Positions 5,405 to 24,958 of a stretch of 38,110 nucleotides of DNA are shown one piece after another. The notes beneath the pieces were generated by a model. That model was not told the DNA's origin. It worked only from the letters and a program-made list of their open reading frames with translations, and searched no databases. The DNA comes from Candidatus Gastranaerophilales bacterium. GTDB lineage: Bacteria; Cyanobacteriota; Vampirovibrionia; Gastranaerophilales; Gastranaerophilaceae. Location: NCBI GenBank assembly GCA_944324375.1, contig CALUWB010000015.1, positions 1-38,110 of the forward strand, in the 5' to 3' direction. Positions within the stretch are counted from its first letter, which is position 1; each line of letters opens with the position of its first letter. A program made the position numbers and the translations under genes.

Positions 5405-5471
5405 AATTTTTGTTTATAAGAGAGTTAACGAATAGTATCTATTGTATAAAAACGACAATAAAGGAGGTCAA

Positions 5472-6173
5472 ATGGATCATATTCAACTTACGAAGGAAAT
5501 TGAAGAAAAATGCTGCGTAGCACGTGGTGTTAAAGGGGTACCAGCTCCAATTCCTCAAGAAGGTCAATGGACAAAATGTAAAGAAATTAACCAAATTTCA
5601 GGTTTAACTCACGGTTGTGGTTGTTGTGCACCTCAACAAGGAACATGTAAATTAACATTAAATGTTAAAGATGGTGTTATTCAAGAAGCATTAGTAGAAA
5701 CATTAGGTTGTTCTGGTATGACTCACTCAGCTGCTATGGCAGGAGAAATTTTACCAGGTAAAACAATTTTAGAAGCGCTAAATACTGACTTAGTTTGTGA
5801 CGCTATCAACGTTGCAATGAGAGAATTATTCTTACAAATCGTTTACGGTCGTACACAAACTGCTTTCTCAGAAAATGGTCTACCAATTGGTGCAGGACTT
5901 GAAGATTTAGGTAAAGGTTTAAGATCTCAAGTTGGTACAATCCATTCAACTAAACAAAAAGGTGTTAGATACTTAGAATTAGCTGAAGGTTACATCTTAG
6001 AATTAGGTTTAGATAAAAATAACGAAGTTATCGGTTATAAATTCGTAAATCTTGGTAAAGTTATGGATGCTATTAAAAAAGGCGTTGATGCTAAAGAAGC
6101 TTACGAAAAGAACATAGGTACATACGGCAGATTTGCAGATGCTGTAAAAACTATTGACCCTCGTGAAGCATAA
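5472..6173 (+). CDS. IscU/NifU-N-like iron-sulfur scaffold protein, GGGtGRT partner
   Basis: This 233-aa protein belongs to the NifU N-terminal/IscU-like scaffold group that is found next to GGGtGRT proteins in many anaerobes. It is Cys-rich: C14, C15, C36, the cluster HGCGCCAPQQGTC (C49, C51, C52, C59), C80 (ETLGCSGMTH) and C109. The LGCSGMTHSAAMAGEIL segment corresponds to the scaffold's core Cys motif. The C-terminal extension (about 150-233) is longer than in classical IscU. The start is the ATG at 5472, with a consensus AAAGGAGGT at 5460-5468; an upstream in-frame TTG at 5442 has no such support. Codon use (many GGT, TTC, AAC and TAC codons) looks like that of a highly expressed gene. 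It is probably one operon with the next gene, 56 bases away. A role in Fe-S assembly or storage is inferred. Confidence 0.85.
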   Translation: MDHIQLTKEIEEKCCVARGVKGVPAPIPQEGQWTKCKEINQISGLTHGCGCCAPQQGTCKLTLNVKDGVIQEALVETLGCSGMTHSAAMAGEILPGKTILEALNTDLVCDAINVAMRELFLQIVYGRTQTAFSENGLPIGAGLEDLGKGLRSQVGTIHSTKQKGVRYLELAEGYILELGLDKNNEVIGYKFVNLGKVMDAIKKGVDAKEAYEKNIGTYGRFADAVKTIDPREA

Positions 6174-6229
6174 GGGTAATTTAAATTTATAAATAGGTTA
6201 TTAGAATAATAAATATAAAGGAAAATAAA

Positions 6230-7228
6230 ATGGCAAAATTTGAAGGACAAGATAGACGTGAAGCAACAATTGCTAAAGTTTTATCAGAATATGGTTTCAA
6301 ATCTTTAGATGAAGCTAACGAACTTTGCTTATCAAAAGGAATTAATGTTGATGAAATCGTTAAAGGGATACAACCAATCGCATTTGATAATGCTTCATGG
6401 GCTTATACATTAGGTTGTGCTATCGCACTAAAAAAAGGTATTACAAATGCAGCAGATGCAGCTGAAGCTATTGGTATTGGATTACAAGCATTTGCAGTTC
6501 CTGGTTCAGTAGGTGATACTAGAAAAGTTGGTATCGGACACGGGAACTTAGGTGCTATGTTATTAAGAGAGGAAACAAAATGTTTCTGTTTCTTAGCTGG
6601 TCACGAATCATTTGCTGCTGCTGAAGGTGCTATTGGTATCGCTAGAAATGCTAATAAAGTAAGAAAAGAACCTTTAAGAGTTATCTTAAATGGGCTTGGT
6701 AAAGATGCAGCATATATCATTGCTAGAATCAATGGATTTACTGCTGTTGAGACTGAATATGATTATAAAACTGGGGAATTAAAAATCGTTAAAGAAACTC
6801 CATTCTCAGATGGTGAAAGAGCTAAAGTAAAATGCTACGGTGCTGATGATGTATCTGAAGGTGTTGCTATTATGATTAAAGAAGGTGTTGACGTTTCTAT
6901 TACAGGTAACTCAACTAACCCTACAAGATTCCAACATCCAGTAGCTGGTACTTACAAAAAATGGTGTTTTGAAAATGGTAGAAAATACTTCTCAGTAGCA
7001 TCTGGTGGTGGTACAGGAAGAACTCTTCACCCAGATAACGTTGCAGCTGGCCCTGCTTCTTATGGTATGACTGATACTATGGGTAGAATGCACGGAGATG
7101 CACAATTTGCTGGATCTTCTTCAGTACCTGCTCACGTTGAAATGATGGGTGTTATCGGTATGGGTAATAACCCTATGGTTGGTGCAACTGTTGCTGTTGC
7201 AGTAGCTGTTGAAAACGCATCTAAATAA
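6230..7228 (+). CDS. GGGtGRT family protein
   Basis: This 332-aa protein contains the name-giving motif GGGTGRT at residues 259-265 (FSVASGGGTGRTLHPDN) and other strongly conserved-looking glycine-rich stretches: VGIGHGNLGAML (100-111), FLAGHESFAAAEGAIGIARN (121-140) and MTDTMGRMHGDAQFAGSSSVP (280-300). The family (Pfam GGGtGRT) has no established function that I know of. It is habitually encoded beside the IscU-like scaffold, as here. There is no signal peptide. The Gly-rich loops suggest nucleotide or phosphate binding (inference). Codon use again suggests high expression. The gene is followed by a strong terminator, closing a two-gene operon. Confidence 0.88.
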   Translation: MAKFEGQDRREATIAKVLSEYGFKSLDEANELCLSKGINVDEIVKGIQPIAFDNASWAYTLGCAIALKKGITNAADAAEAIGIGLQAFAVPGSVGDTRKVGIGHGNLGAMLLREETKCFCFLAGHESFAAAEGAIGIARNANKVRKEPLRVILNGLGKDAAYIIARINGFTAVETEYDYKTGELKIVKETPFSDGERAKVKCYGADDVSEGVAIMIKEGVDVSITGNSTNPTRFQHPVAGTYKKWCFENGRKYFSVASGGGTGRTLHPDNVAAGPASYGMTDTMGRMHGDAQFAGSSSVPAHVEMMGVIGMGNNPMVGATVAVAVAVENASK

Positions 7229-9589: not shown

Positions 9590-12500
9590 ATGGCAGAAAT
9601 TAACAATCTTGAAGATATAAAAACTAATTTTGAAAAAATCACAAATTTAATCAATTCTATGAGAGCTCAAGGAGTTTTAAACTTCTCTGGAATGGATAAA
9701 GTATTATCTGCAATAAATAATAAATTAGACAATCTTAATGTTGAAGAAAATACAGATTTAATAAAACTTTTAATCAACGAAGTTAAAAGTAATATTGAAG
9801 AGCGCCATGGTTTTGTTGTTTCAAAATTTTCCGAAATAGAAGCTGCCATTAATAACCTTTTAAAAAATAATGATGATACCCTTAAATCTTCAGAAGTTAG
9901 AAAATTATTTGATGTCATTGCGACAAATCTAAGTGTTTTTTCAAAAGAAGTAGTAGCCCAAAAAGATGTCTTAACAGAAATAACATTAAGATTAGAATCT
10001 TTAAGAGCAGATGATTCTGATAAAAAAGAAATTATAAAAAATATAACTAATATTAAATCAGATATAACAAGAATAAACAATGGCTTTGAAAGCATAATCT
10101 TAAATATAAATAACAATTTCAAAGAATTATCGTCTAGTTTTGACAGACTTGCAGCAAGCAATTTAAGTGACAAATATGGTAAATCAATAGAGGATATTCA
10201 TACAATATCTAATACTATACTTTCTGCTATATCAATGATTGATAAAAAGAATGAAGAATTTAATGAAAGTATAAATAGATTAGTTACTGTTGGAGATTTT
10301 AATGAATCAAAAGAATTAATCCTCAATTTAATAACAAAAAATGACGAGATTAGAGATAGCCTTGATAATACAGCAGATAAAGAGTCAATAGGACATCTAA
10401 CAAATGCTATTAATACTTCAATTGGTGCAATTAATGAGATAAAAGCAGTCATAATAAATAATTCAGATGAAAAAAGCAAACAGTTAATTTCTCAATTGGA
10501 ATACTTAGAAAGTGTAGTAAGGTCATCTACTGAAAATTTTGATTTCAAACAATTTAAAACAGAATTACTTAATGTTGTTAATGATATTGGGAATGAAACA
10601 AATATTGTATGTAATGATTTATTAGAAACAAATCAAGATTTAAAGAGAATATTAACAGCAGTAAACTTAGCAGACTTTAATTCCCACCTTGCAAAATTAA
10701 ATGAATCTGTTTTGCACACTAATAACGATATAAAAGACTTTGTTGAACAAACATCAGAAAAAACAATTAATGATAATAGAACTTATATCAATAATATTGC
10801 AACAGATTTCAGAAACCAAATATTAGGCGTAAATAATAGTTTAGACGGAATAAGACAAGAATTCATTGATAGCCAAAATGGATATTACAATGGTATTATT
10901 GATAAAATACAGGAATTTTCACAACTTACTAAAAGTTTTAATTCTGAAGTAGAAAACAATAATACCAAAACAATTTCAGAAATAAATAACTTGGGTTATT
11001 CTCTAAAACAAGAATTATTAAATATTAGTTCAAATATTAATGAAAGTTCAAAAGCTTCAATTAATGAAATTATAGAACAGTTAAATTCTCTATTTGCGTT
11101 ATCAAATGACTTAAAATCTGAAATTATCATTTTAACAGAAAATAATACCGAAAAAATTACAAATAAAATTAATGAAGTTTCAGCAGCATTAAATATACTC
11201 AATAATAATATAGACACAATCCCAAATAAACTAAATAATGATTTTGATATAAAAATAATCGATTTAAAAAACCAATTAAACACATTATCTTCAGACATAT
11301 CAACAGAATCAAATAATAACTCTGAAAAGTTATTATCAAATGTTTCAGAAATATACAAACAAATTGTTTCTTTATCTGATGATTTCAAAAATATGTACAC
11401 AGAAGATTCTGAAGAGATCAATAGATGTGTAAACAATGTTTATGATAAAATCAATGAATTAAATACAGAAATTCCAACTTTATTATTTCAAACATCAGGC
11501 AGAATATCAGACTTAACATCTATTGTTCAAGATAGATTTGAAAAAACAGAAGAAAGACTTAACTCAATACAAACAAGTATTAATTATAATGACTTGCAAC
11601 AAAACACTTTTGAAAAAATTGACTCAATAAATTCTGATATAAAAATTTTAATTAACAATATTTCTGAAAAATTATCTGAAAATAACAATAATCTATTTGA
11701 ACAAATTAAAGGAATAAATACTGATATTAAAGAATTATCAGGAATAATAAACAATAATATTGGAGATGCAAAACAAGAAGTAAGAGAAAAATTAGTATTT
11801 ATTGAAGAAACGATAAATACTATTAAAAATAATATTTTTGATAATAATAACAATGAAGAAAATCAATATATTTCAAATAAACTAAACGTATTATCAGAAG
11901 ACATAAAAGAATTATCAAGCAATATTAATAATAATATTGATAATAATAGTACAACTACAATTCAAAAATTAGATGCAATATTATATAACGCAAATGAAAT
12001 TAAAAATTCTATATCTTCTAATATTGAATCTTTAAATGAAAGTTTAAATAATATAATTTCAAATAAAACAGACGAAATTCAAAACTCTATCAATTATGTA
12101 TCAACAAATGTTGAGGAGTATACTAACAATCTTACAGAAAAACTAACTGATGTATCTAAAGAAGTAAAAAATGTAACAGAAAAATTAGCAAATTATTTTA
12201 TTAATAATGATTCTGACATTATAACTAAACTTAATTCTGTGTCTGATAAAATTACAGAATTAAATAGTTACAATAATGATAAAATAACAGACATACAAGA
12301 TAATACAAACCAAATAACTAATAAAATTGAAGATATAAATTATAACATTTCAACAAAAGCAGATTTAATAAACTCAAATATCTCAACAAATTCTGATATT
12401 ATTTCAGAAAAAATTGATATTGTTTCAACTGATCTAAAAAATCTAACAGGCAACTTAATAAACAAAATAACAACGGAAAATGATAAAAATACAGAAAATA

Positions 12501-15500
12501 ACAATATCATCAATTCCAATATTAATGACTCAAAAGAAGAAATTATCGTAAATATTAATAATTCAAAAAACACTTTCTCTGATTTATTTAATGCAATAAA
12601 AAATGATATAGAAATCTTAACTAATTCTATTAATAATATTCAACAAGATGAAACATTAAAAGAAACATTAATTAATGATATAGGAATTATTCAAACAAAT
12701 ATTTCTCATAAATTTGAAGAATTAAACAATAATATTAAATTTTCAGTTGATGATTTAAAATCTGAAATACAAACACAAAACATCAACAAATATATAGAAT
12801 CTCTTAAATATGAAATATCAACATTAGATGAAAAAATTGAACAGTTATACAAAGATACTAACACATCAAATATAACATCTATTCAAAACATTCATACAAA
12901 TATTGATTCTACAAGAGATAGTATAATAGAAAATATTGAAAAAAATAAACAAGAAATAATTAATTTAAGTAATAACATTATAAATTCCTTTAATAATACT
13001 GATGAATTGGTTACAACTCAAACATCCAATATAGTTGAAAATATTAGAGAAATTTTATTATCTTTCCAAGCAAAAGCTGAATCAACAAATCATACTTTAA
13101 TTGAAAATAATCAAAACAATAATGAGAAAATTGTTGCATTAGTTTCTGCTTTATCAAATGAAATTAATCTTCTTGGCACGTCAATTGAAGATTTTTCAAC
13201 AAATAATAAGCAAGAGATATTAAATAATGTCAAATACTTATCAAATTTATTAAACACAATATCAGAAGAATTTAAATCTTCACTAGAAACATCACTTAAT
13301 GATGTTGAAGCTAAAATAGCTCTAATACCTAACAAAATAGACTATTCAGAACAAACGATTATACAAAAACTTGAAGAAACAAAAGATATACAAAATGAAA
13401 CTCTTTCTAACATTATAAATAATTTTTACGATATTAAAGATGCAATTATAGAAAAAACAAACAGTTCTGAAAACAGCATAAATTCTGAATTGACAATCAT
13501 TAAAGATAAATTTACAGAATTCAACAACAATAAACATCAAAATGACGAAATAATACAAACATTAACCAATCTAATAAATCAGACTATTGATAACATTTCT
13601 GAATCAAATAACTCTTTTAGCATTAAAATTGATGATGAAATTAATAACTTAAAAGTAATACTTAATGAAATTGATGAACACATCAACAATAATAGCAACA
13701 ATATTCAAGAGAATATTTCAACAAAAATTTCATATATAGAAACAGCATTATCAGAAATTAGACATAAACAAGAATTACAAAAAATTAAAATAGAAGAACA
13801 AATAGTCCAATCTATTGAATATATAAAAAATATTATTGAAAATACAGATTCAAATACAAATGATTTATTCAGTAAAATTAACACATCAAAAGATGAAACA
13901 ATAGATATTATTAAAGAATCTAAACAAGATTTATATACTACTATTGAAAATATTTCTGATCGTTCAAATAATAATTTTATTGAGCTTACATCACAATTAG
14001 AATCAATAAAAGAATTTATAAATTCTAACTTTATTCAAAATAATAAAATAAATACTGTTGAAGAAACTATCTCTAATATGGCTAATAATATTAATATTAT
14101 ATTAAGCCAAAATTCAACAAGAAAAGATTTAGAAGCAATAGAATCAGAACTTACAAATATAAAACAGAATTTTACAGATTTTATATCAAACAATTCTGAG
14201 GAAAAAAGCAATAATATTATTAATAAATTAACTTGCCATATAAATAATATTTACGAAGTTATAAATTCTAAATTAGTTCAACAAGAAGAATTACTTGCTT
14301 CTGAACTTAATTATATAAAAGAGAATTTTGATAATAAATCCGATTTAGAAACTCTTATAAATAACACTGAAGATTTAAAATCTCACATAAAAAATAGCAC
14401 CCCTAAAATTAATGATATAAAAGATAATATTGGTTTATTATCACAAGAATTAATAAATATAAAACAGGATATAATAAACAATTCAGGCATTAATCTTGAA
14501 GAAATAAAAAATAAACTTACAGGATTATTAAATAATATCCAAATAAATTCTGATGAAATTAAAAATATCTTATCAAATAAAGAAGAAATTATAGATATTA
14601 AGAATGAAATATTTAATATTACACAAAATATAAATGATTTAGATAATAATATAAGAGAAAATAATAATCATAAACTAGAAGAAATTAAACAAGAATTTGC
14701 ATATTTATCAAATATTATTAATTCTAATGCAAATGAGATCAATGATACACTATCAAATAAAGAAGATTTTGTAGATATAAAAAATCAGATATTTAAAATT
14801 AATCAGAATATAAGTAATTTAGATAATAATATAAAAGAAAATAATATTAAAAATATAGAAACTATCAAACAAGATATAGAAAATTTATCTAATATTATCA
14901 ATTCTAATTCTGAGGGAATATTATCACTCCTTTCAAATAAGGACGATTTTACAAATATTCAAGACCAAATATTAAACATCACACAGAATATAGCCAACTC
15001 AGAAAATAATATAAAACAAGGAAATGCAAATTTATTTGAAGGAATAAAAGAAGAATTTGTATCTTTATCAAATAGAATTAATAATAATTCAAATGATATT
15101 ATAAGCATTATTTCTAACAAAGAAGATTTTATAAATATTCAGAACAAAATATCTACTCTTATTGAAAATCTTAATGCTTTAGACAATAATATACAAAAAG
15201 ATAATTCTTCTCTACTTGGTGAAATAAGAAAAGAATTTACATCTATATTAAATTTATTAAATATAAACTTTAATGAAATAAGAGATATAATAACTAACAA
15301 AGAAAATTTTGAAAATTTAGAAAATCAAATATTAAATATTTCTCAAACAATTAATGAATTAGACAACCATTTTCAAGTTAGTAGTAATACAAAATTTGAA
15401 GAAATAAAAGAAGAATTTTCATCTTTATCAAACATTATGAATTCAAATTCAAATGATATTAAAGAAATTCTTGCAAATAAATCTGATTTTGAAAACATTA

Positions 15501-17482
15501 ATTCAGAAATCAAAAATATATTTAATGAATTAAAAACACTTGATTTAAATATTGATGAAGACACAACAAGACAACTTTCCATAATAAAAGAAGAATTTGT
15601 ATCAATATCTACTGCAATTTTTACAAACACAGATAAGATAACAAATACATCTAAAGCAAATTTAAATCTTATACAAGAAAAATTTGAATATATCGCAAAT
15701 TTAATTAACACATTAGAAACAGATATAAAAGAAGCAAATATAAAAGCAATTGATACAATTAAAAATGAATTACAATGCTTAGATGATATTACAAATAAAA
15801 TAGAAAAAATTGATATAACAACTTCAAACATTGAAACAAATGATAAGCTAATCTTAAGTAATATTGAATCAATAGAAAACAAAATTAAAAATATAAATAC
15901 AAATATTATTACGATTAGTGAAATAGATTATTCCAATGATTTAGAAACAATCAAAAATATAATATTTGAACAAAAAGATAAACTAAATTCATTAAGCACA
16001 ATTAATGATATTAATAATCTACCTAAAATTGAAGATATCAATAATATACTAGAGAATAATATTTTAGAATTAGTTCAAAAATTCAATGAAAAAATTGATT
16101 CAACTTCAACAAAAGAAATAATACATAATCAACTTTTGGAATTAAAATCAGATATTATAACTCAAACAATAAAACTTCTAGATCAAATATCATTTGAAGT
16201 AGAACAAGGTGAGATTATAGATTACATCCAAGAGAAATCAAATAAATTAAATAATTCAGTCGAAGATATAAAAAATAATATCTTGACTCAAATACAAGCA
16301 GATAAAGAAGAATTATTATATCATTTAGCATCAAATGATGAGCTAAGAGTGCAATTTGATAATATTAATAAAAAACTTGATGATTTATCTGATAATTATG
16401 AATTGAATAAGGGATTTGAAAATATTCATTCAAAACTTGATTTTATTGTAGATAATTCAATATTAAAAAGTTTTGAAGATGTTCAATCAAGAATTGATTA
16501 TGTTGTAGATAATACAATAGAAAAGGGCTTTGAAGATGTAAGAAGTCAAATTGAAGAAGTTAGAGATAATACAATAAAAAAAGAGTTTACTGATGTAAAA
16601 AATCAATTGGAAACATTTGCAAATAATGATGATCTACAAAAAGAATTTGCAGAAGTAAAAAAACACCTTTTAACTATTCAATCAGGAGACTCAAAAGCAG
16701 ACTATACATATAGTTTACAAGATGTAGAATCTGATATTGCAAAATTAAGACTTGCAATGAAAGAACTTCAAGAAGTTTCTACCGATGAAGAATTGGATGA
16801 TATAAGAAAGAAAGTTGACGATATTGTTTTAGTTGTTGGCAACATTAAAAACCAAATAGCTCAAGCTGATATGGACGAAGTATCATCAAGCATAGAAAAA
16901 ATTAACGAAGACATCGTTAGTATTAGTACAAGAACAAATAAATTATTATTAACATCTGAAAATTCATCAAATTTATTAAAAGAACACTTAGAAAGTTTTA
17001 GATTGGTTATTGATGATCTAGATGTAAGAACAAGAGAACTTATAGAACACAATGATTTAAGTCATATAGAAACATCCATATCAAAGATAGAACGAACATT
17101 AATCGAGAACAAAGGATATAATAGTATTGTAAATCAATCGTTATTATCTATTGCAGAATGGGTTGATTGTGCAGGATCAACATTAACATCAATTACTAAA
17201 AAATTAGAAAAATTAGATGATATCGAAGATGTTAAAGGTATGATCCGTAGTATAGAAATGCCAACTCAATTTGACTATTCAGTATTTAATAATATTGAAG
17301 AAAAATTTAATGAACAACAAAATAGAATTAATTCATTAGAAGAAAAATTAAACAGATTAACTGAATTAGTTGAAGCAAATGATAATAGTCAAATAAATAA
17401 AAAAATAACAAGTGTAGATAAGCAATTAGCAAAATTAAATAAAAGTATTGAAAGATTAACTTCATATGTTGACGAAGAATAA
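9590..17482 (+). CDS. Giant coiled-coil repeat protein, 2630 aa
   Basis: This single uninterrupted 7.9-kb ORF encodes about 300 kDa of almost pure predicted coiled coil. Its composition is dominated by Asn, Ile, Ser, Lys, Glu and Leu. Pro is sparse, Cys is rare, and I find only one Trp (SIAEWVDCAGS near the C-terminus). There is no signal peptide, transmembrane helix, LPXTG or other anchor, so a cytoplasmic location is the simplest reading. Residues about 1662-2021 are six tandem 60-aa units; about 2269-2364 are five units of 19-20 aa. The last 200 residues are less repetitive and may be the functional end domain (NSIVNQSLLSIAEWVD, then a final coiled coil ending LTSYVDEE). The ATG has a weak AGGA upstream. 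Its 3' end overlaps the start of the GlcD-like gene by 17 bases. Possible roles are a filament, tether or cell-shape scaffold, all inference. I recognise no named family. Confidence 0.9.
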   Translation: MAEINNLEDIKTNFEKITNLINSMRAQGVLNFSGMDKVLSAINNKLDNLNVEENTDLIKLLINEVKSNIEERHGFVVSKFSEIEAAINNLLKNNDDTLKSSEVRKLFDVIATNLSVFSKEVVAQKDVLTEITLRLESLRADDSDKKEIIKNITNIKSDITRINNGFESIILNINNNFKELSSSFDRLAASNLSDKYGKSIEDIHTISNTILSAISMIDKKNEEFNESINRLVTVGDFNESKELILNLITKNDEIRDSLDNTADKESIGHLTNAINTSIGAINEIKAVIINNSDEKSKQLISQLEYLESVVRSSTENFDFKQFKTELLNVVNDIGNETNIVCNDLLETNQDLKRILTAVNLADFNSHLAKLNESVLHTNNDIKDFVEQTSEKTINDNRTYINNIATDFRNQILGVNNSLDGIRQEFIDSQNGYYNGIIDKIQEFSQLTKSFNSEVENNNTKTISEINNLGYSLKQELLNISSNINESSKASINEIIEQLNSLFALSNDLKSEIIILTENNTEKITNKINEVSAALNILNNNIDTIPNKLNNDFDIKIIDLKNQLNTLSSDISTESNNNSEKLLSNVSEIYKQIVSLSDDFKNMYTEDSEEINRCVNNVYDKINELNTEIPTLLFQTSGRISDLTSIVQDRFEKTEERLNSIQTSINYNDLQQNTFEKIDSINSDIKILINNISEKLSENNNNLFEQIKGINTDIKELSGIINNNIGDAKQEVREKLVFIEETINTIKNNIFDNNNNEENQYISNKLNVLSEDIKELSSNINNNIDNNSTTTIQKLDAILYNANEIKNSISSNIESLNESLNNIISNKTDEIQNSINYVSTNVEEYTNNLTEKLTDVSKEVKNVTEKLANYFINNDSDIITKLNSVSDKITELNSYNNDKITDIQDNTNQITNKIEDINYNISTKADLINSNISTNSDIISEKIDIVSTDLKNLTGNLINKITTENDKNTENNNIINSNINDSKEEIIVNINNSKNTFSDLFNAIKNDIEILTNSINNIQQDETLKETLINDIGIIQTNISHKFEELNNNIKFSVDDLKSEIQTQNINKYIESLKYEISTLDEKIEQLYKDTNTSNITSIQNIHTNIDSTRDSIIENIEKNKQEIINLSNNIINSFNNTDELVTTQTSNIVENIREILLSFQAKAESTNHTLIENNQNNNEKIVALVSALSNEINLLGTSIEDFSTNNKQEILNNVKYLSNLLNTISEEFKSSLETSLNDVEAKIALIPNKIDYSEQTIIQKLEETKDIQNETLSNIINNFYDIKDAIIEKTNSSENSINSELTIIKDKFTEFNNNKHQNDEIIQTLTNLINQTIDNISESNNSFSIKIDDEINNLKVILNEIDEHINNNSNNIQENISTKISYIETALSEIRHKQELQKIKIEEQIVQSIEYIKNIIENTDSNTNDLFSKINTSKDETIDIIKESKQDLYTTIENISDRSNNNFIELTSQLESIKEFINSNFIQNNKINTVEETISNMANNINIILSQNSTRKDLEAIESELTNIKQNFTDFISNNSEEKSNNIINKLTCHINNIYEVINSKLVQQEELLASELNYIKENFDNKSDLETLINNTEDLKSHIKNSTPKINDIKDNIGLLSQELINIKQDIINNSGINLEEIKNKLTGLLNNIQINSDEIKNILSNKEEIIDIKNEIFNITQNINDLDNNIRENNNHKLEEIKQEFAYLSNIINSNANEINDTLSNKEDFVDIKNQIFKINQNISNLDNNIKENNIKNIETIKQDIENLSNIINSNSEGILSLLSNKDDFTNIQDQILNITQNIANSENNIKQGNANLFEGIKEEFVSLSNRINNNSNDIISIISNKEDFINIQNKISTLIENLNALDNNIQKDNSSLLGEIRKEFTSILNLLNINFNEIRDIITNKENFENLENQILNISQTINELDNHFQVSSNTKFEEIKEEFSSLSNIMNSNSNDIKEILANKSDFENINSEIKNIFNELKTLDLNIDEDTTRQLSIIKEEFVSISTAIFTNTDKITNTSKANLNLIQEKFEYIANLINTLETDIKEANIKAIDTIKNELQCLDDITNKIEKIDITTSNIETNDKLILSNIESIENKIKNINTNIITISEIDYSNDLETIKNIIFEQKDKLNSLSTINDINNLPKIEDINNILENNILELVQKFNEKIDSTSTKEIIHNQLLELKSDIITQTIKLLDQISFEVEQGEIIDYIQEKSNKLNNSVEDIKNNILTQIQADKEELLYHLASNDELRVQFDNINKKLDDLSDNYELNKGFENIHSKLDFIVDNSILKSFEDVQSRIDYVVDNTIEKGFEDVRSQIEEVRDNTIKKEFTDVKNQLETFANNDDLQKEFAEVKKHLLTIQSGDSKADYTYSLQDVESDIAKLRLAMKELQEVSTDEELDDIRKKVDDIVLVVGNIKNQIAQADMDEVSSSIEKINEDIVSISTRTNKLLLTSENSSNLLKEHLESFRLVIDDLDVRTRELIEHNDLSHIETSISKIERTLIENKGYNSIVNQSLLSIAEWVDCAGSTLTSITKKLEKLDDIEDVKGMIRSIEMPTQFDYSVFNNIEEKFNEQQNRINSLEEKLNRLTELVEANDNSQINKKITSVDKQLAKLNKSIERLTSYVDEE
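14573..15652 (+). repeat. Six tandem 180-bp (60-aa) repeats inside the giant coiled-coil gene
   Basis: The marker S/T/A-N-K-(E/D/S)-(E/D/N)-F/I recurs at 14573, 14753, 14933, 15113, 15293 and 15473, exactly 180 bases apart. Each unit continues with a motif like IxNQIxNIxQNIxxLDNNI and then IKEEFxxLSNxINSNxNDI. Units are diverged in sequence but share an exact length, so selection holds the period. Further out the spacing breaks down: an earlier NKSDLE sits 240 bases before the first unit. Confidence 0.9.
16394..16681 (+). repeat. Five 19-20-residue repeats near the C-terminus of the giant protein
   Basis: Units begin at 16394, 16454, 16511, 16568 and 16625 with the pattern N-x-x-x-K-x-F-E-D-V-x-S-x-I-x-x-V-x-D (for example NTIEKGFEDVRSQIEEVRD). 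Spacings are 60, 57, 57 and 57 bases. This register is distinct from the 60-aa array and marks a separate segment of the rod. Confidence 0.8.
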
Positions 17483-18851
17483 AATAACAACAGAATTAAG
17501 TAAAATATTACCAAAAGATAATATTCTATCTACCTTAGAAGAATGTTACGTTTATTCTCAAGATGGTACAAATACTAGAACTTCTGACAAATTACCTGAT
17601 ATTGTTATTTTTCCTGAAACTATTGAAGAAATACAAAAAATAATGAAATTTGCTAATAACAATAATATTCCCGTCACAGCTCGTGGAGCAGGAACAAACT
17701 TAATTGGAGCTTGCCTTCCTGACTTTGGAGGGATTGTTATGAATTTTTCAAAAATGAATAAAATTCTAGAAATAAATAAAACAGATATGACTTCAACAGT
17801 ACAACCTGGAGTTGTTATTGGGGATTTACAAAAAGAACTTGATAAAGTTGGTTTGTTTTTTCCACCAGATCCATCAAATCTTAGAGTTTCAACAATAGGT
17901 GGAGCAATCGCTCAATCAGCAGGGGGACCTAAAACATTCAAATATGGTACAACTAAAGATTATATTTTAGGACTAAAAATTGTTCTTGCAGATGGAACAT
18001 TGATGAAAACAGGGGGAAATACAATTAAAAATGCAACAGGATATCCATTAACACAATTATTTATTGGAAGTGAAGGTACATTAGGGATTGTAGTTGAAGC
18101 TACTTTAAAATTAATTCCTAAACCGGAATCGACTAGAGTAATGTTAGCATATTTTGATAATATAGAAGATGCAACATTATCAGTAAATAATATAATTGAT
18201 TCAAAAATATTTCCATCAACGATTGATTTTATGGATAAAAATTCGATAACAACTGTTGAAAAATTTTATCCTGCAAATCTTAAAACAGATAAAGAAGCAG
18301 CTTTAATAATTGAAATTGATGGCTCAAAAGATTCAGTAAAAACTGATGGAGATAAATTAAAAGAAATTTTACTAGCTTCAAATGCTACAGATGTAACAAT
18401 ATCTAACACAGAAGAAGAATATGAAAAAATATGGACAGCTCGTCGTTCTTCATTTGCAGCAGCAGCAAAATTGAGACCTGATGTTGTGACAGACGATGTA
18501 ATAGTTCCTCGATCCCAACTTCCAAAACTGATTAAAGGTATTAATGAAATCTGTAGTAGATATAACCTAGAAACTTGTGTTGTAGGACATGTTGGAGATG
18601 GGAATGTTCATCCTCAAATTGCGCTCAATCTAGAAAATCCACAAGAACATCAAAATTATATCGAAGCAAAAAAAGAAATATATAATCTTACAATCTCTCT
18701 TGGTGGAACATTATCAGCTGAACATGGTATAGGCGCTGAAAAGAAACAATATTTACCGATAGCAGTTGATAACACAGCTTTAGAATATATGAAAAGAATC
18801 AAATATATTTTTGATCCTAAAAACATACTTAATCCCAATAAAATATTCTAA
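17466..18851 (+). CDS. glcD: FAD-binding oxidase, GlcD/D-lactate dehydrogenase type
   Basis: This 461-aa flavoprotein of the VAO/GlcD family oxidises a 2-hydroxyacid such as glycolate or D-lactate. The N-terminal FAD_binding_4 domain (about 44-220) has PVTARGAGTNLIGACLP (69-85), STIGGAIAQSAGGPKTFKYG (142-161) and GSEGTLGIVVEATLKLIP (201-218). The C-terminal FAD-oxidase domain has GHVGDGNVHP (H375, H382) and AEHGIG (E419, H420), the usual metal/substrate residues. It ends in DPKNILNPNKIF as the family does. The ATG at 17466 lies inside the end of the giant gene (17-base overlap), which implies translational coupling. No GlcE, GlcF or EtfAB partner is in the window, so the electron acceptor is unknown. 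The exact substrate cannot be told from sequence. Confidence 0.88.
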   Translation: MLTKNKITTELSKILPKDNILSTLEECYVYSQDGTNTRTSDKLPDIVIFPETIEEIQKIMKFANNNNIPVTARGAGTNLIGACLPDFGGIVMNFSKMNKILEINKTDMTSTVQPGVVIGDLQKELDKVGLFFPPDPSNLRVSTIGGAIAQSAGGPKTFKYGTTKDYILGLKIVLADGTLMKTGGNTIKNATGYPLTQLFIGSEGTLGIVVEATLKLIPKPESTRVMLAYFDNIEDATLSVNNIIDSKIFPSTIDFMDKNSITTVEKFYPANLKTDKEAALIIEIDGSKDSVKTDGDKLKEILLASNATDVTISNTEEEYEKIWTARRSSFAAAAKLRPDVVTDDVIVPRSQLPKLIKGINEICSRYNLETCVVGHVGDGNVHPQIALNLENPQEHQNYIEAKKEIYNLTISLGGTLSAEHGIGAEKKQYLPIAVDNTALEYMKRIKYIFDPKNILNPNKIF

Positions 18852-18925: not shown

Positions 18926-19240
18926 ATGGATTTGATATTAATATATTGTACTGTTCCAAACGCAAAAACAGCAAAAGAAATGGCAAATTTAATAGTAAAA
19001 CATCGTTTGGCTGCTTGTGTAAGTATAACAGATAAGGTAGAGTCAATTTTTTCTTGGGATGGAGAACTATGCAAAGAGAAAGAATTATTATTATCAATTA
19101 AAACTGTAAGAAGTAATTTTGAAAGAATTAATTCTTTAATTAATGACATGCATCCTTATAATGTTCCAGAGGTAATTGCTGTCCCTGTAATTAATTGTAG
19201 TGAAGACTATATGCAATGGATTGTACACGAAACGAAATAA
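18926..19240 (+). CDS. cutA: CutA1 divalent-ion tolerance protein
   Basis: This 104-aa protein has the standard CutA1 length. It matches the trimeric ferredoxin-like CutA fold: LILIYCTVPNAKTAKEMANL at the start, LAACVSIT (about 28-35), SIFSWDGELCKEKELLLSIKT (40-60) and HPYNVPEVIAVPVINCSEDYMQWI (76-99). The family is named for copper tolerance in E. coli, but its real role is unsettled. The ATG has GGAG at 18915-18918, seven bases upstream. The 3' end overlaps the metallopeptidase gene by 25 bases. Confidence 0.94.
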   Translation: MDLILIYCTVPNAKTAKEMANLIVKHRLAACVSITDKVESIFSWDGELCKEKELLLSIKTVRSNFERINSLINDMHPYNVPEVIAVPVINCSEDYMQWIVHETK

Positions 19241-20028
19241 AACATTTAAAAAAACAAATAATTGATTTCTTTGTATCTTTAGGGATCGAAGTTCATACAT
19301 CAACTAAAGCTCTTGGACATCAAGGTTTTTTTAGGCTGAATAGGATTGATATTTCAAGAGATATTAACGAGAATAGAATTATACCAACTTTATTACATGA
19401 ATTTGCGCATTTCATTACTTTTAATATAAAAGCCAAATGTAATGATTTTATCCCTATTTTTAAATGTGATGATAATTATATATATGAAGAATTAATAAAA
19501 ATAACTAATTTTGTTGATGAAAATTCTACGCTAGAAAAATTATATATACAGAAAGATAATATTAAAAATACAATAAAATATCACGAAAAAATTATAAAGA
19601 ATAAATACCCTAATTTTAAACGAAATGAAAAATTTAAGCCATTTCTAAAACATACAAAAAACTCAGATGCGAAATATCTCTTAAAACATGATGCAATAAA
19701 AGTATTGCATTGGTTTACTTATAAAACATATTCTATAATCAATATAGAAAAAGAATTTCCAGATATGCCAGAAGAATTTATTTCTTACTTAAAACTTAAA
19801 TCTTGTCAACGAAAGCAATCGTCAATTTCTCGTAAAATAAACAAGTTAAATAAATATTATAATACTCCAACAGAACTTTTTGCTAGATTTATTGAAGCGC
19901 TTTATCTCAATAAAGAAGAAGCAACAAATATAGCGCCAAAGACTTTTAAACTATTCAAAGAATTATACATTAAAAATTATTATACATATCTTAACGAGCT
20001 ATTTAAAATTGTAAATATTAATATATAA
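19216..20028 (+). CDS. Putative zinc metallopeptidase (HEFAH), unknown family
   Basis: This 270-aa protein has LLHEFAHFI at 59-67, a gluzincin-type HExxH motif (H61, E62, H65). NTPTELFARFIEALYLN at 216-232 offers a downstream Glu (E220) as a possible third zinc ligand. The arrangement resembles compact HExxH proteins such as ImmA/IrrE relatives or phage-associated peptidase domains, but I cannot place the family. There is no signal peptide, so the protein is cytoplasmic. The middle (about 100-215) is highly basic, Lys-rich and helical. Its ATG at 19216 sits within cutA, so it is co-transcribed with it. What it cleaves is unknown. Confidence 0.65.
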   Translation: MDCTRNEIKHLKKQIIDFFVSLGIEVHTSTKALGHQGFFRLNRIDISRDINENRIIPTLLHEFAHFITFNIKAKCNDFIPIFKCDDNYIYEELIKITNFVDENSTLEKLYIQKDNIKNTIKYHEKIIKNKYPNFKRNEKFKPFLKHTKNSDAKYLLKHDAIKVLHWFTYKTYSIINIEKEFPDMPEEFISYLKLKSCQRKQSSISRKINKLNKYYNTPTELFARFIEALYLNKEEATNIAPKTFKLFKELYIKNYYTYLNELFKIVNINI

Positions 20029-20082
20029 AATAGCAATTTTTTGTATAAAAATGTTTTATATAAATAGTGTGTGTGTAGAATT

Positions 20083-21408
20083 ATGACTAAAATTTTTAAT
20101 CAATTTATCATAAATAATAATATTTCTACAAATAAAAAAAGTAGAAACAATTATTGTTCGCCTATGAAACACTCAGAAATAATTGATAGTTTTACCAAAC
20201 AAACTAACAATATTAATTTTAATGGGACAGAGAAAAAAAATGATACTTCCAATGGCCGTTTCTTAAAGGGATTAAAAAATATCACAGACCCATATAGTGG
20301 AGTCAAGCTATTAACATTCCAAGAGATGGAACAAATTTCACAAGATTTATCGCAAATTAATAATTCACAAAAAAAAATAAGATACCTTAAAAAATATGAA
20401 AAATCTATGCTACCAATAGAGCATAATGTTTATAAATTTTTTGAATACAAAACAAAAAAAAATTATTTTGCTAGTTTTTCAAAATTATTAAAAGAACAAA
20501 AGCCATATTGCATAAAAAATTTACAACAAGAACAATCTGAAGTATTTAATAAAATAGAAGATGCAACACAAAACATCTCAAGTAAAAATAGAAAACTCAT
20601 TTTAGATGAAGTCTCAGATGGCAGAAGAAGAATATTAATTGAAAATACAGATAAGCATTCTTTTAAACGTAAAGTATTTATTGAAAAACTTTTAAAGCTT
20701 CAATGCGAAGATATTTTAAACAGGACAGAAAAAGAGCTCTTAAAAAATCGAAAATTTTATGGGTTAGATGATTTAACAGAAGCACGTGAAAGGTTTGAAT
20801 CTGAACCATTAAATCATGCAAAAGATGGGAAAACTCCAATTGATTTAATTATAGATTTGAAACATAAATATTTACCAGATTATAATGATGAATTTAAACC
20901 AATAGTAGAAATTGCAAGGCAACTACCGACCTCCAACACAAGCATAAATGCCTTTATAATAAAATATGCAGATAGATCTGATAAAGAAATTATAGAAAGA
21001 TTATTAAATCAATCTGTTAGATCAGTAGAACACATTGAAGCTGATTCGCTTGGAGGTGAAAATGAAGCTGATAACTTTATGCTTGTTAGTAGAGCTAGAA
21101 ATGAAGCAAGAGGGAACTTACCTTTAAAAGTATTTATTAAACAATATCCAGGGATTCCAAAATATACACAAAAATATATGAATGATATAGTAAACAATGG
21201 CAACAAAGGAAAACTTGCTGGATATGAATGGTATCCATATGTTTTGAAAGATAAATTAGAGTCTGTTGGCATAAAAGTTAATTTAGAAAAATATAAAATA
21301 CCTACAGAAGAAGCATTTAAAACATTACCACCTCGATTGAGGAATAGATATCCAAATTATAAACAATTTATTCCTGATAGAACTGAGCCACTAAATATCA
21401 AAGCATAA
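20083..21408 (+). CDS. HNH-nuclease-like protein with long N-terminal region
   Basis: This 441-aa protein runs from the ATG at 20083; an in-frame GTG at 20071 would add four residues, and neither has a good Shine-Dalgarno. Residues 314-348 read like an HNH/McrA nuclease core, with SVEHIEADSLGGENEADNF and then N340-x2-RG-N-LPL. These are the H-x-x-x-x-S-x-GG-x-N...N-x-x-RG pattern of such enzymes. A segment at about 67-81 (ITDPYSGVKLLTFQE) resembles the region that carries the first Cys pair in zinc-bound relatives, but here the cysteines are absent. The N-terminus holds a short NINFNG motif in a low-complexity leader. It could be a nuclease or a structural derivative. It is followed by a strong bidirectional terminator. 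Confidence 0.6.
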   Translation: MTKIFNQFIINNNISTNKKSRNNYCSPMKHSEIIDSFTKQTNNINFNGTEKKNDTSNGRFLKGLKNITDPYSGVKLLTFQEMEQISQDLSQINNSQKKIRYLKKYEKSMLPIEHNVYKFFEYKTKKNYFASFSKLLKEQKPYCIKNLQQEQSEVFNKIEDATQNISSKNRKLILDEVSDGRRRILIENTDKHSFKRKVFIEKLLKLQCEDILNRTEKELLKNRKFYGLDDLTEARERFESEPLNHAKDGKTPIDLIIDLKHKYLPDYNDEFKPIVEIARQLPTSNTSINAFIIKYADRSDKEIIERLLNQSVRSVEHIEADSLGGENEADNFMLVSRARNEARGNLPLKVFIKQYPGIPKYTQKYMNDIVNNGNKGKLAGYEWYPYVLKDKLESVGIKVNLEKYKIPTEEAFKTLPPRLRNRYPNYKQFIPDRTEPLNIKA

Positions 21409-22920: not shown

Positions 22921-24246
22921 ATGAAAAAAATTAAGTTCTATTTATTATTAATACTAGCAAGATTTTTATCAGTTATTATAAAAATACATGGAAAATCATC
23001 AGGAACATCATTAATTGGAATGATTACATTAAAAATAGAGCCGAATTTTTTAAAAGAAGCATCGAAATATACAAAACAAACAATTACTATAACAGGAACC
23101 AACGGGAAAACAACAACATCAGGAATACTTTCACACATTATTAAAAATGATAAACATACTGTATTAAATAATGCAAAAGGTGCTAACATGCTCTCAGGAA
23201 TTGCAAACACTTTTGCATTAGGAATATCTCCATTTAAAAAGTATGATTTTGCTGTACTTGAATCAGATGAAGCATATTTATCTAAACTATATGAAAATAT
23301 TGAATCAGATTACTTAGTAGTTACTAATTTATTTAGAGACCAGCTTGATAGATATGGGGAACTTAGTACAACAGCAAAAAAAATCCAAAATGCAATTGAT
23401 AAAAATAGAAATATTCAATTAATACTTAATGCAGATGATCCACTAGTTGTAAACTTTAGACCTCTTGGGAATAAAAAGCCTATTTACTATGGTTTTAACA
23501 AAGTAGAATATAATAATAAAAATATAGAATCAAATGCACCAATGGAAAACCTTAATTGTCCTTGGTGTGGAGGTGAATTACAATACGAATCACGATTTTA
23601 TGCTCAACAAGGACATTATTACTGTTCTTGTGGATATAGAAGACCTAAATGTAAATATTCTGCAGATGTAACTATCTATAATGATTATTCAATAATAAAA
23701 ATGAACTATAATAATACAGAGTATTCATTTAAAATCCAATTATTAGGATTATATAATGCATACAATGCATTAGCAGCAATAGCAACAGCATTTGAATTAG
23801 GTATAACTGATATTCAAAAAGCAATTAATAGTTATCAATCAGCATTTGGGCGAAGTGAAATTAAAAACATTAATGGAAGAAAAGCAATAATTCAATTAAT
23901 AAAAAACCCAACAGGCGCAAGTGAAGTATTAAAAACTGTAGATTTTAATTCAAATATATTAATCATAATAAATGATAATTATGCTGATGGACGTGATGTT
24001 TCCTGGTTATGGGATACAAATTTTGAGATATTACAAAACACTAATAAAACAATAATTACATCAGGAACAAGAGCATATGATATGGCTGTAAGACTAAAAT
24101 ATGCAGGAATAAACAATATTAAAGTAATTCAAAACATTGATGAAGCGATAAGATATGTAAGCAACAATGGTGCAGATAAGAGTAATATTACTATTTTGCC
24201 GACTTACACAGCTTTACTTCATATAAACAATAAAAAAGGAGATTAA
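22921..24246 (+). CDS. murT: Lipid II isoglutaminyl synthase subunit MurT
   Basis: This 441-aa protein is the Mur-ligase-like subunit of the MurT-GatD complex, which amidates the alpha-carboxyl of D-Glu in lipid II. The P-loop is GTNGKTTT (59-66), and VLESDEAYL and VVTNLFRDQLDRYGE follow at 112-147. The MurT-specific Cys4 ribbon is C213/C216 (NCPWCGG) and C235/C237 (YYCSCGYRRPKC). The C-terminal DUF1727 domain (about 315-440) has KNPTGASEVL and NDNYADGRDVSWLWD (351-365), whose Asp residues complete the active site with GatD in studied systems. GGAG at 22909-22912 lies eight bases from the ATG. The usual neighbour gatD is missing: pdxJ follows after one base. Confidence 0.92.
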   Translation: MKKIKFYLLLILARFLSVIIKIHGKSSGTSLIGMITLKIEPNFLKEASKYTKQTITITGTNGKTTTSGILSHIIKNDKHTVLNNAKGANMLSGIANTFALGISPFKKYDFAVLESDEAYLSKLYENIESDYLVVTNLFRDQLDRYGELSTTAKKIQNAIDKNRNIQLILNADDPLVVNFRPLGNKKPIYYGFNKVEYNNKNIESNAPMENLNCPWCGGELQYESRFYAQQGHYYCSCGYRRPKCKYSADVTIYNDYSIIKMNYNNTEYSFKIQLLGLYNAYNALAAIATAFELGITDIQKAINSYQSAFGRSEIKNINGRKAIIQLIKNPTGASEVLKTVDFNSNILIIINDNYADGRDVSWLWDTNFEILQNTNKTIITSGTRAYDMAVRLKYAGINNIKVIQNIDEAIRYVSNNGADKSNITILPTYTALLHINNKKGD

Positions 24247-24247
24247 A

Positions 24248-24958
24248 ATGTTATTAGGAGTAAATATAGATCACGTTGCTACATTAAGAAACGCAAGAGG
24301 TGGAATTGATCCTGATGTAATATTAGCAGCAAGAATATGCAAGGATATAGGAGTTGAATCAATTACAACTCATTTAAGAGAAGACAGACGCCATATAAAA
24401 GATGATGATGTAAGAGCAATTAGATTATTACCCAAAACAAGATTAAATCTAGAAATGGCAATGACTGATGAAATGCAACAAATTGCTTTAGATATTAGAC
24501 CTCATGCTGTATGTATTGTTCCTGAAAAAAGACAAGAACTTACGACAGAAGGAGGATTAGATGTTGCAGGACAAATTGACAGAGCTATTGCATTTGTAAA
24601 ACCTCTTGTAGAAAAAGGAATTGAAGTTAGCATGTTTATTGACCCAGATATTACACAAGTATCAGCGGCATATAAAACTGGAGCTCAATTTATTGAACTT
24701 CACACAGGGAAATATTCAGAACACTTTGGAACAGACAAAGAAGAAGAAACTTTTCAAGATTTAAAAGGAGCTGCAACATTCGCACAATCTTTAGGTTTAA
24801 AAGTAAATGCTGGACACGGTTTAAACTATGAGAATGTAAAAAGGATGCATGAAATTCCAGATTTAGTAGAATTAAATATAGGCCATAGTATAATTGCAAG
24901 AGCAGTTTTTGTTGGGCTAGCTCAAGCAGTAAAAGAAATGAAAGAATTAGTTGAGTAA
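24248..24958 (+). CDS. pdxJ: Pyridoxine 5'-phosphate synthase
   Basis: This 236-aa TIM-barrel enzyme condenses 1-deoxyxylulose 5-phosphate with aminoacetone phosphate to form pyridoxine 5'-phosphate. Motifs from N- to C-terminus are LGVNIDHVATLRNARGG (3-19), TTHLREDRRHIKDDDV (39-54), RLNLEMAMTDEM, CIVPEKR, FIDPD, FIELHTGKYSE, NAGHGLNYENV and LNIGHSIIARAVFVGL. It has every hallmark and the standard length. It implies a DXP-dependent B6 pathway. One base separates it from murT, and the AAGGAG of its ribosome site is inside the murT 3' end, so the two are coupled. Confidence 0.97.
   Translation: MLLGVNIDHVATLRNARGGIDPDVILAARICKDIGVESITTHLREDRRHIKDDDVRAIRLLPKTRLNLEMAMTDEMQQIALDIRPHAVCIVPEKRQELTTEGGLDVAGQIDRAIAFVKPLVEKGIEVSMFIDPDITQVSAAYKTGAQFIELHTGKYSEHFGTDKEEETFQDLKGAATFAQSLGLKVNAGHGLNYENVKRMHEIPDLVELNIGHSIIARAVFVGLAQAVKEMKELVE

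Follow-up and report, generated by a model that had tools for sequence, protein, structure and literature searches.

The window analysed here, a stretch of 38,110 nucleotides from a contig of a Gastranaerophilales bacterium, contains a giant coiled-coil protein gene on its plus strand (9590-17482, +). The gene starts with ATG, is open over its whole length and encodes a protein of 2630 aa, which confirms the intact 7.9-kb reading frame previously noticed from the letters of the DNA. It is present once in the 2.03-Mb genome. The composition of the protein is dominated by asparagine and isoleucine (16% and 15%, respectively), as had likewise been noted; it has only 6 prolines, 5 cysteines and a single tryptophan, and its net charge is -194. 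Neither a signal peptide nor a membrane segment was found in the protein (best 19-residue Kyte-Doolittle mean 1.41, N-terminus 0.40), and seven of its relatives are likewise without a membrane segment on the Kyte-Doolittle scale. The scan agrees with the earlier description of a cytoplasmic protein lacking a secretion signal or membrane anchor.

Directly downstream lies a gene for an FAD-linked oxidase of the GlcD/lactate-dehydrogenase type (17466-18851, +), the start of which overlaps the end of the giant gene by 17 bp. Such an overlap between the end of the giant gene and the oxidase start occurs in 79 out of 87 loci; it measures 11-35 bp, and 11-17 bp in all but one of them. We interpret this conserved overlap as an indication that the two genes are probably translationally coupled in the family of the host. 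In the remaining families of the order, the neighbours of the giant gene change and the oxidase does not adjoin it; cell-wall or division genes do not adjoin it beyond the host's family either. This exchange of neighbours suggests that the link to the oxidase is not essential to the function of the giant protein. A functional tie between the two was considered and rejected, since the giant gene occurs without this neighbour outside the family in which the overlap is kept.

Other genes of the region are worth recording in their own right. The 270-aa protein encoded at 19216-20028 displays a zinc-protease-like motif (HEFAH) and a sub-threshold SprT-like match of 18.3 bits, and in about 50 related loci its gene follows that of the oxidase. 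The gene at 20071-21408 encodes a genus-conserved protein of 445 aa without a Pfam match, in which an HNH-nuclease-like stretch (VEHIEADSLGGENEADNFM) can be recognised by eye. In the interval 22921-24958, the gene after a MurT-type ligase is pdxJ instead of gatD, the usual partner of MurT in lipid II amidation. Upstream of the giant gene, about 57 of the 87 related loci possess a divergent gene cluster that, judged from its sequence, encodes a 2-oxoacid:ferredoxin oxidoreductase, and a wecB-type gene takes its place in the genus of the window. At 5442-7228, a GGGtGRT protein (PF14057, 643 bits) is encoded beside a Cys-rich protein of 243 aa, which is conserved in the genus and has no Pfam or NCBIfam match.

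Helical periodicity extends through the entire giant protein. In 75% of the 36-residue windows it lies above the 95th percentile for shuffled sequence, none of the windows is weak, and the hydrophobic period is about 3.6. Beyond the 60-residue array described below, the periodicity is of a generic kind, with 7, 11, 18 and 29 residues. By its sequence, the giant protein is a nearly uninterrupted alpha-helical coiled coil. Helices of this kind might alternatively bind lipids, and the protein would then coat membranes or lipid droplets like an apolipoprotein or perilipin. Two members score above the cut-off of 90 for the apolipoprotein model PF01442 (L037 with 110.8 and L042 with 99.2), the window protein (59.5) and L046 (47.5) remain below it, and an 11-residue periodicity is present. 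The same model also picks up unrelated helices of amphipathic or coiled-coil type. The hydrophobic face, however, is narrow (about 100-120 degrees), hydrophobic residues make up only about 30% of the protein, and proline is almost missing, all of which fits a coiled-coil core better than a lipid-binding surface. We regard lipid coating as very unlikely.

The two ends of the coiled coil differ markedly in conservation from what lies between them. The N-terminal module (about residues 1-300; 9590-10489, +) has identities of 74-95% in the genus and a dN/dS of about 0.02-0.09, and its low-confidence model is all-helical. It is followed by a hypervariable coiled-coil rod (about residues 301-2250; 10490-16339, +), which displays large indels within the genus. 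The last 285 aa form a conserved C-terminal helical module (16625-17479, +), recognised by its sequence conservation and an all-helical model, with the motifs YSLQDVESDIAKLR, SISxRTNKLLLxS, YLxEWxD, FxxQQxRIDxLExK and KLxSYVDEE. Within the genus, identity amounts to 66-98% over the first 300 and the last 380 residues, in contrast to 17-63% in the rod. For both ends, structure prediction gave all-helical models of low overall confidence (pTM 0.26 and 0.51), for which no fold match below E 0.001 was obtained. Because both ends are predicted to be all-helical, the C-terminal "domain" is better understood as a conserved helical module than as a globular one. The sequence-only reading had proposed a C-terminal domain with Trp and Cys as the working end of the protein. 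Its conservation, which includes the Trp of the EWVDC motif, agrees with this proposal, but the Cys is not conserved and the end is a helical module. The more general suggestion of a coiled-coil structural rod or tether gains from both the continuous helical periodicity and the conserved C-terminal end.

Six 60-aa (180-bp) units stand in strict register at residues 1661-2020 (14570-15649, +), as evident from TRF, lag analysis and unit comparison. A degenerate seventh unit with 13-19 identities lies upstream of the six (residues 1601-1660; 14390-14569, +). The six units share 19-36 of 60 residues with each other, compared to 5.7 +/- 2.6 (99.9th percentile 16) for random 60-mers of the same protein. 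TRF detects the 180-bp period at 14571-15016 with 0-1% indels, and lag 60 reaches z = 19.7 over residues 1500-2150. A 19-residue repeat array is located further towards the C-terminus (residues 2255-2349; 16352-16636, +); it was identified by TRF, as a 57-bp period at 16354-16582, and by unit comparison. The six units at exactly 180 bp and the separate 19-residue array had both been pointed out before and stand as described. The exact 60-residue period that had been ascribed to the protein holds for the array, but it spans only about 360-420 of the 2630 residues, or approximately one sixth.

Sixty residues fit seven heptads plus one hendecad, equivalent to 17 helical turns, so that an indel within a unit would put the coil out of phase, and the gain or loss of whole units leaves the phase intact. 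Between congeners, 60-aa units have been added or dropped as a whole, including deletions of precisely 60 aa at residues 1720 and 1900. Pairwise indel lengths displayed no significant signal with respect to coil phase in a noisy, non-independent set, in which multiples of 29, 42 and 89 were prominent. The exact value of 60 finds a simpler explanation in coil phase and a recent, local tandem expansion of the array. In other genera the repeat periods are 46, 58, 62, 66, 67, 74, 80 or 105 aa, or no period is present, and the fixed spacing formerly suggested for the rod is not supported.

Relatives were searched for with the end modules instead of the whole protein as queries. The C-terminal profile finds the giant protein in 271 of 286 Gastranaerophilales genomes, and nothing convincing (at most 31 bits) in other orders of the same class. 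Its matches in the distant families f3-f7 are weaker, and some orthologues there may be missed; as most of the genomes are MAGs, calls of absence lean on consistency across many of them. On this profile evidence, the giant gene is single-copy and near-universal in Gastranaerophilales. The length of complete orthologues ranges from 748 to about 2870 aa, which is nearly four-fold. The ratio dN/dS is about 0.02-0.14 at both ends versus about 0.20-0.63 in the rod. Conserved ends, combined with a rod variable in sequence, length and period, show that selection keeps the ends and the coiled-coil character, and neither the length nor the 60-residue unit. The giant gene offers a clear example of a freely evolving rod between two conserved ends. 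The selection on length but not on sequence that had been assumed for this protein is thus the reverse of the observed pattern, in which the ends are constrained and the rod changes quickly in sequence as well as in length.

The same variation bears on the idea, also raised earlier, of a molecular ruler or fixed-length tether, in which the length of the rod sets the size of one structure. A long cytoplasmic coiled coil with conserved ends would suit such a role, and HMW2 provides a precedent for length setting (PMC8191905). The target of the ruler, however, would have to vary along with a rod that differs nearly four-fold among orthologues and by whole units among congeners, and we consider a ruler quite unlikely. 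It could also be argued that the gene is a rapidly evolving by-product, an AT-driven Asn/Ile coil with expanded repeats and little function, which is kept because the essential-looking oxidase gene starts within its 3' end. The richness in Asn and Ile agrees with low-GC codons, and the oxidase overlap occurs in most of the family. However, strong purifying selection acts on both ends, homologues persist in other families without an oxidase neighbour, and no frameshifted or truncated copy was found among 82 complete proteins. This explanation is barely credible to us.

Comparisons with known families support the earlier view that the protein is not assignable to any of them, as its ends match only generic coiled coil. 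We likewise attribute the weak matches in PDB, Pfam, NCBIfam and PHROGs (SNARE, spike, SMC, chemoreceptor and EzrA) to generic coiled-coil character. A clear match to an adhesin or to SMC/MukB, or a signal for export, had been named in the sequence-only reading as evidence that would count against it, and none of these was obtained. A surface adhesin was rejected, given the lack of an export signal or anchor and PDB adhesin matches that have an E of about 0.01 or weaker and fall on the C-terminal coil. A phage tail tape measure protein was rejected as well: matches in PHROGs are weak and restricted to the coil, the chromosomal context is conserved, and a search for homologues of the C-terminus among phages and in IMG/VR found none. 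Some orthologues have weak matches to the SpiroCoCo models (NCBIfam NF047514 and NF047515; best E 2.1e-7), but these are of the generic coiled-coil type and the window protein is unmatched at E 0.1. Membership in SMC/MukB/Rad50 was rejected with 16.5 bits for the window protein against a cut-off of 729.4 bits. A related possibility is an organiser of the chromosome or nucleoid, i.e., an SMC-like bridging protein without ATPase, for which the weak scores of some members against SMC, Rad50 and archaeal SMC-related models might speak. The low score of the window protein, however, covers only the coil, a Walker motif or head domain was not found in the giant protein, and the rod is strongly acidic. 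We give this possibility very little weight.

The genomic background of the order is distinctive with respect to cell elongation. MreB is absent from the sampled genomes of the order, in which the MreB model matches only DnaK-sized proteins with about 60-85 bits; the respective protein of the window genome is DnaK according to NCBIfam (965 bits). Of the other orders of the class, 19 genomes were tested, and each has a true MreB with 414-478 bits. MreC is present in 0 of 7 genomes of the order versus 11 of 13 outside of it, and all 10 sampled genomes of the order have a single SEDS gene, compared to two in 9 of 10 others. The SEDS gene of the window genome forms part of a murF-mraY-murD-murG cluster; its best match is FtsW, with a score of 334.8 bits that remains marginally below the cut-off of that model (337.5). 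Genes for peptidoglycan synthesis are present in the order, and bactofilin, an alternative shape protein, is absent from all sampled genomes inside and outside the order. As far as gene content can tell, Gastranaerophilales have lost the usual MreB/MreC/RodA elongation machinery. No account of this protein family or of the MreB/MreC/RodA loss in Gastranaerophilales was found in the open-licence papers searched.

We propose that the giant protein acts as a soluble cytoplasmic scaffold or tether. Its two conserved helical end modules would bind partners or one another, kept apart by a long, presumably parallel coiled-coil rod. As one uninterrupted helix the protein would measure about 390 nm (2630 residues x 0.1485 nm), and lengths across the order would be about 110-430 nm. 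Such a rod would require only helical phase and an acidic, Asn-rich surface, and may therefore drift in sequence and grow or shrink by tandem units. In an order devoid of MreB, MreC and RodA, the scaffold might organise how the envelope grows, or the polarity or shape of the cell, comparable to the growth pole ring protein (GPR) of Agrobacterium. In our view the giant protein is likely to be some form of structural scaffold or tether. That it contributes to growth, polarity or shape, with GPR as the guiding analogy, is possible but somewhat doubtful; the lack of cell-wall or division genes next to it beyond the host's family and the lack of a membrane segment like those of GPR speak against it. 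The combined reading, in which a cytoplasmic scaffold or tether docks at both ends and organises envelope growth or polarity, seems to us evenly balanced, as the scaffold claim is its core.

It is conceivable, if rather doubtful, that the Rod complex was lost at the origin of Gastranaerophilales and that a soluble giant organiser became universal there, as an independent counterpart of the GPR system of Rhizobiales. Both the loss of the complex and the gain of the protein happened once, on a single branch, so that the correlation has n = 1. Some members of the order without a detectable C-terminal match are also devoid of MreB, which speaks against the link. If true, this would be a second case of a giant helical scaffold standing in for bacterial actin. 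Gastranaerophilales are common gut bacteria whose cell biology is little known. A growth organiser would provide a concrete molecule for shape control in a walled bacterium without a Rod complex, and would bear on the question of whether actin-like guidance has given way to giant helical scaffolds more than once.

Several known systems invite comparison. Crescentin, FilP and the cyanobacterial coiled-coil-rich proteins (CCRPs), some of which are from the wider cyanobacterial phylum, are likewise cytoplasmic coiled coils without an enzymatic domain (PMC10873595, PMC6599971, PMC7002697). The giant protein could accordingly be imagined as an intermediate-filament-like polymer that stiffens the cell instead of a discrete scaffold; its coiled-coil content and conserved ends would permit this, and cyanobacterial CCRPs form filaments (PMC7002697). 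In contrast to these proteins, however, the giant protein is far longer and has no sequence match to such families, and an ordered, staggered lattice is not expected to tolerate a rod of free length. A filament is therefore an unlikely alternative to the scaffold or tether that we prefer. HMW2 of Mycoplasma pneumoniae, a coiled-coil rod setting the size of the attachment organelle (PMC8191905), resembles the giant protein in its large size, its cytoplasmic coiled-coil rod and its structural role. It differs in that it sets the size of a specific organelle, whereas the length of the giant protein varies among orthologues and no organelle is known for it.

The closest analogue, in architecture and in genomic setting, is GPR of Agrobacterium tumefaciens and its relatives in Rhizobiales, a protein of 2115 aa with 1700 in continuous helix, which is classified under PF01442 and needed for polar growth (PMC8262873). 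Its order, Rhizobiales, lacks MreBCD, RodA and PBP2 (PMC8546619). GPR has two predicted N-terminal membrane segments (PMC8262873), but the giant protein has none, and a function at the growth pole has been demonstrated for GPR only. With regard to the features of GPR/TipN-type proteins, the giant protein has the long helix, with PF01442 above its cut-off in two orthologues and below it in the window protein and L046, but not the N-terminal transmembrane segments, and for the lack of these we do not file it as a member of the GPR family. The likeness, drawn from the published description of GPR, lies in a giant, mostly continuous helix with PF01442 matches and an important C-terminus, in an order without the Rod complex.
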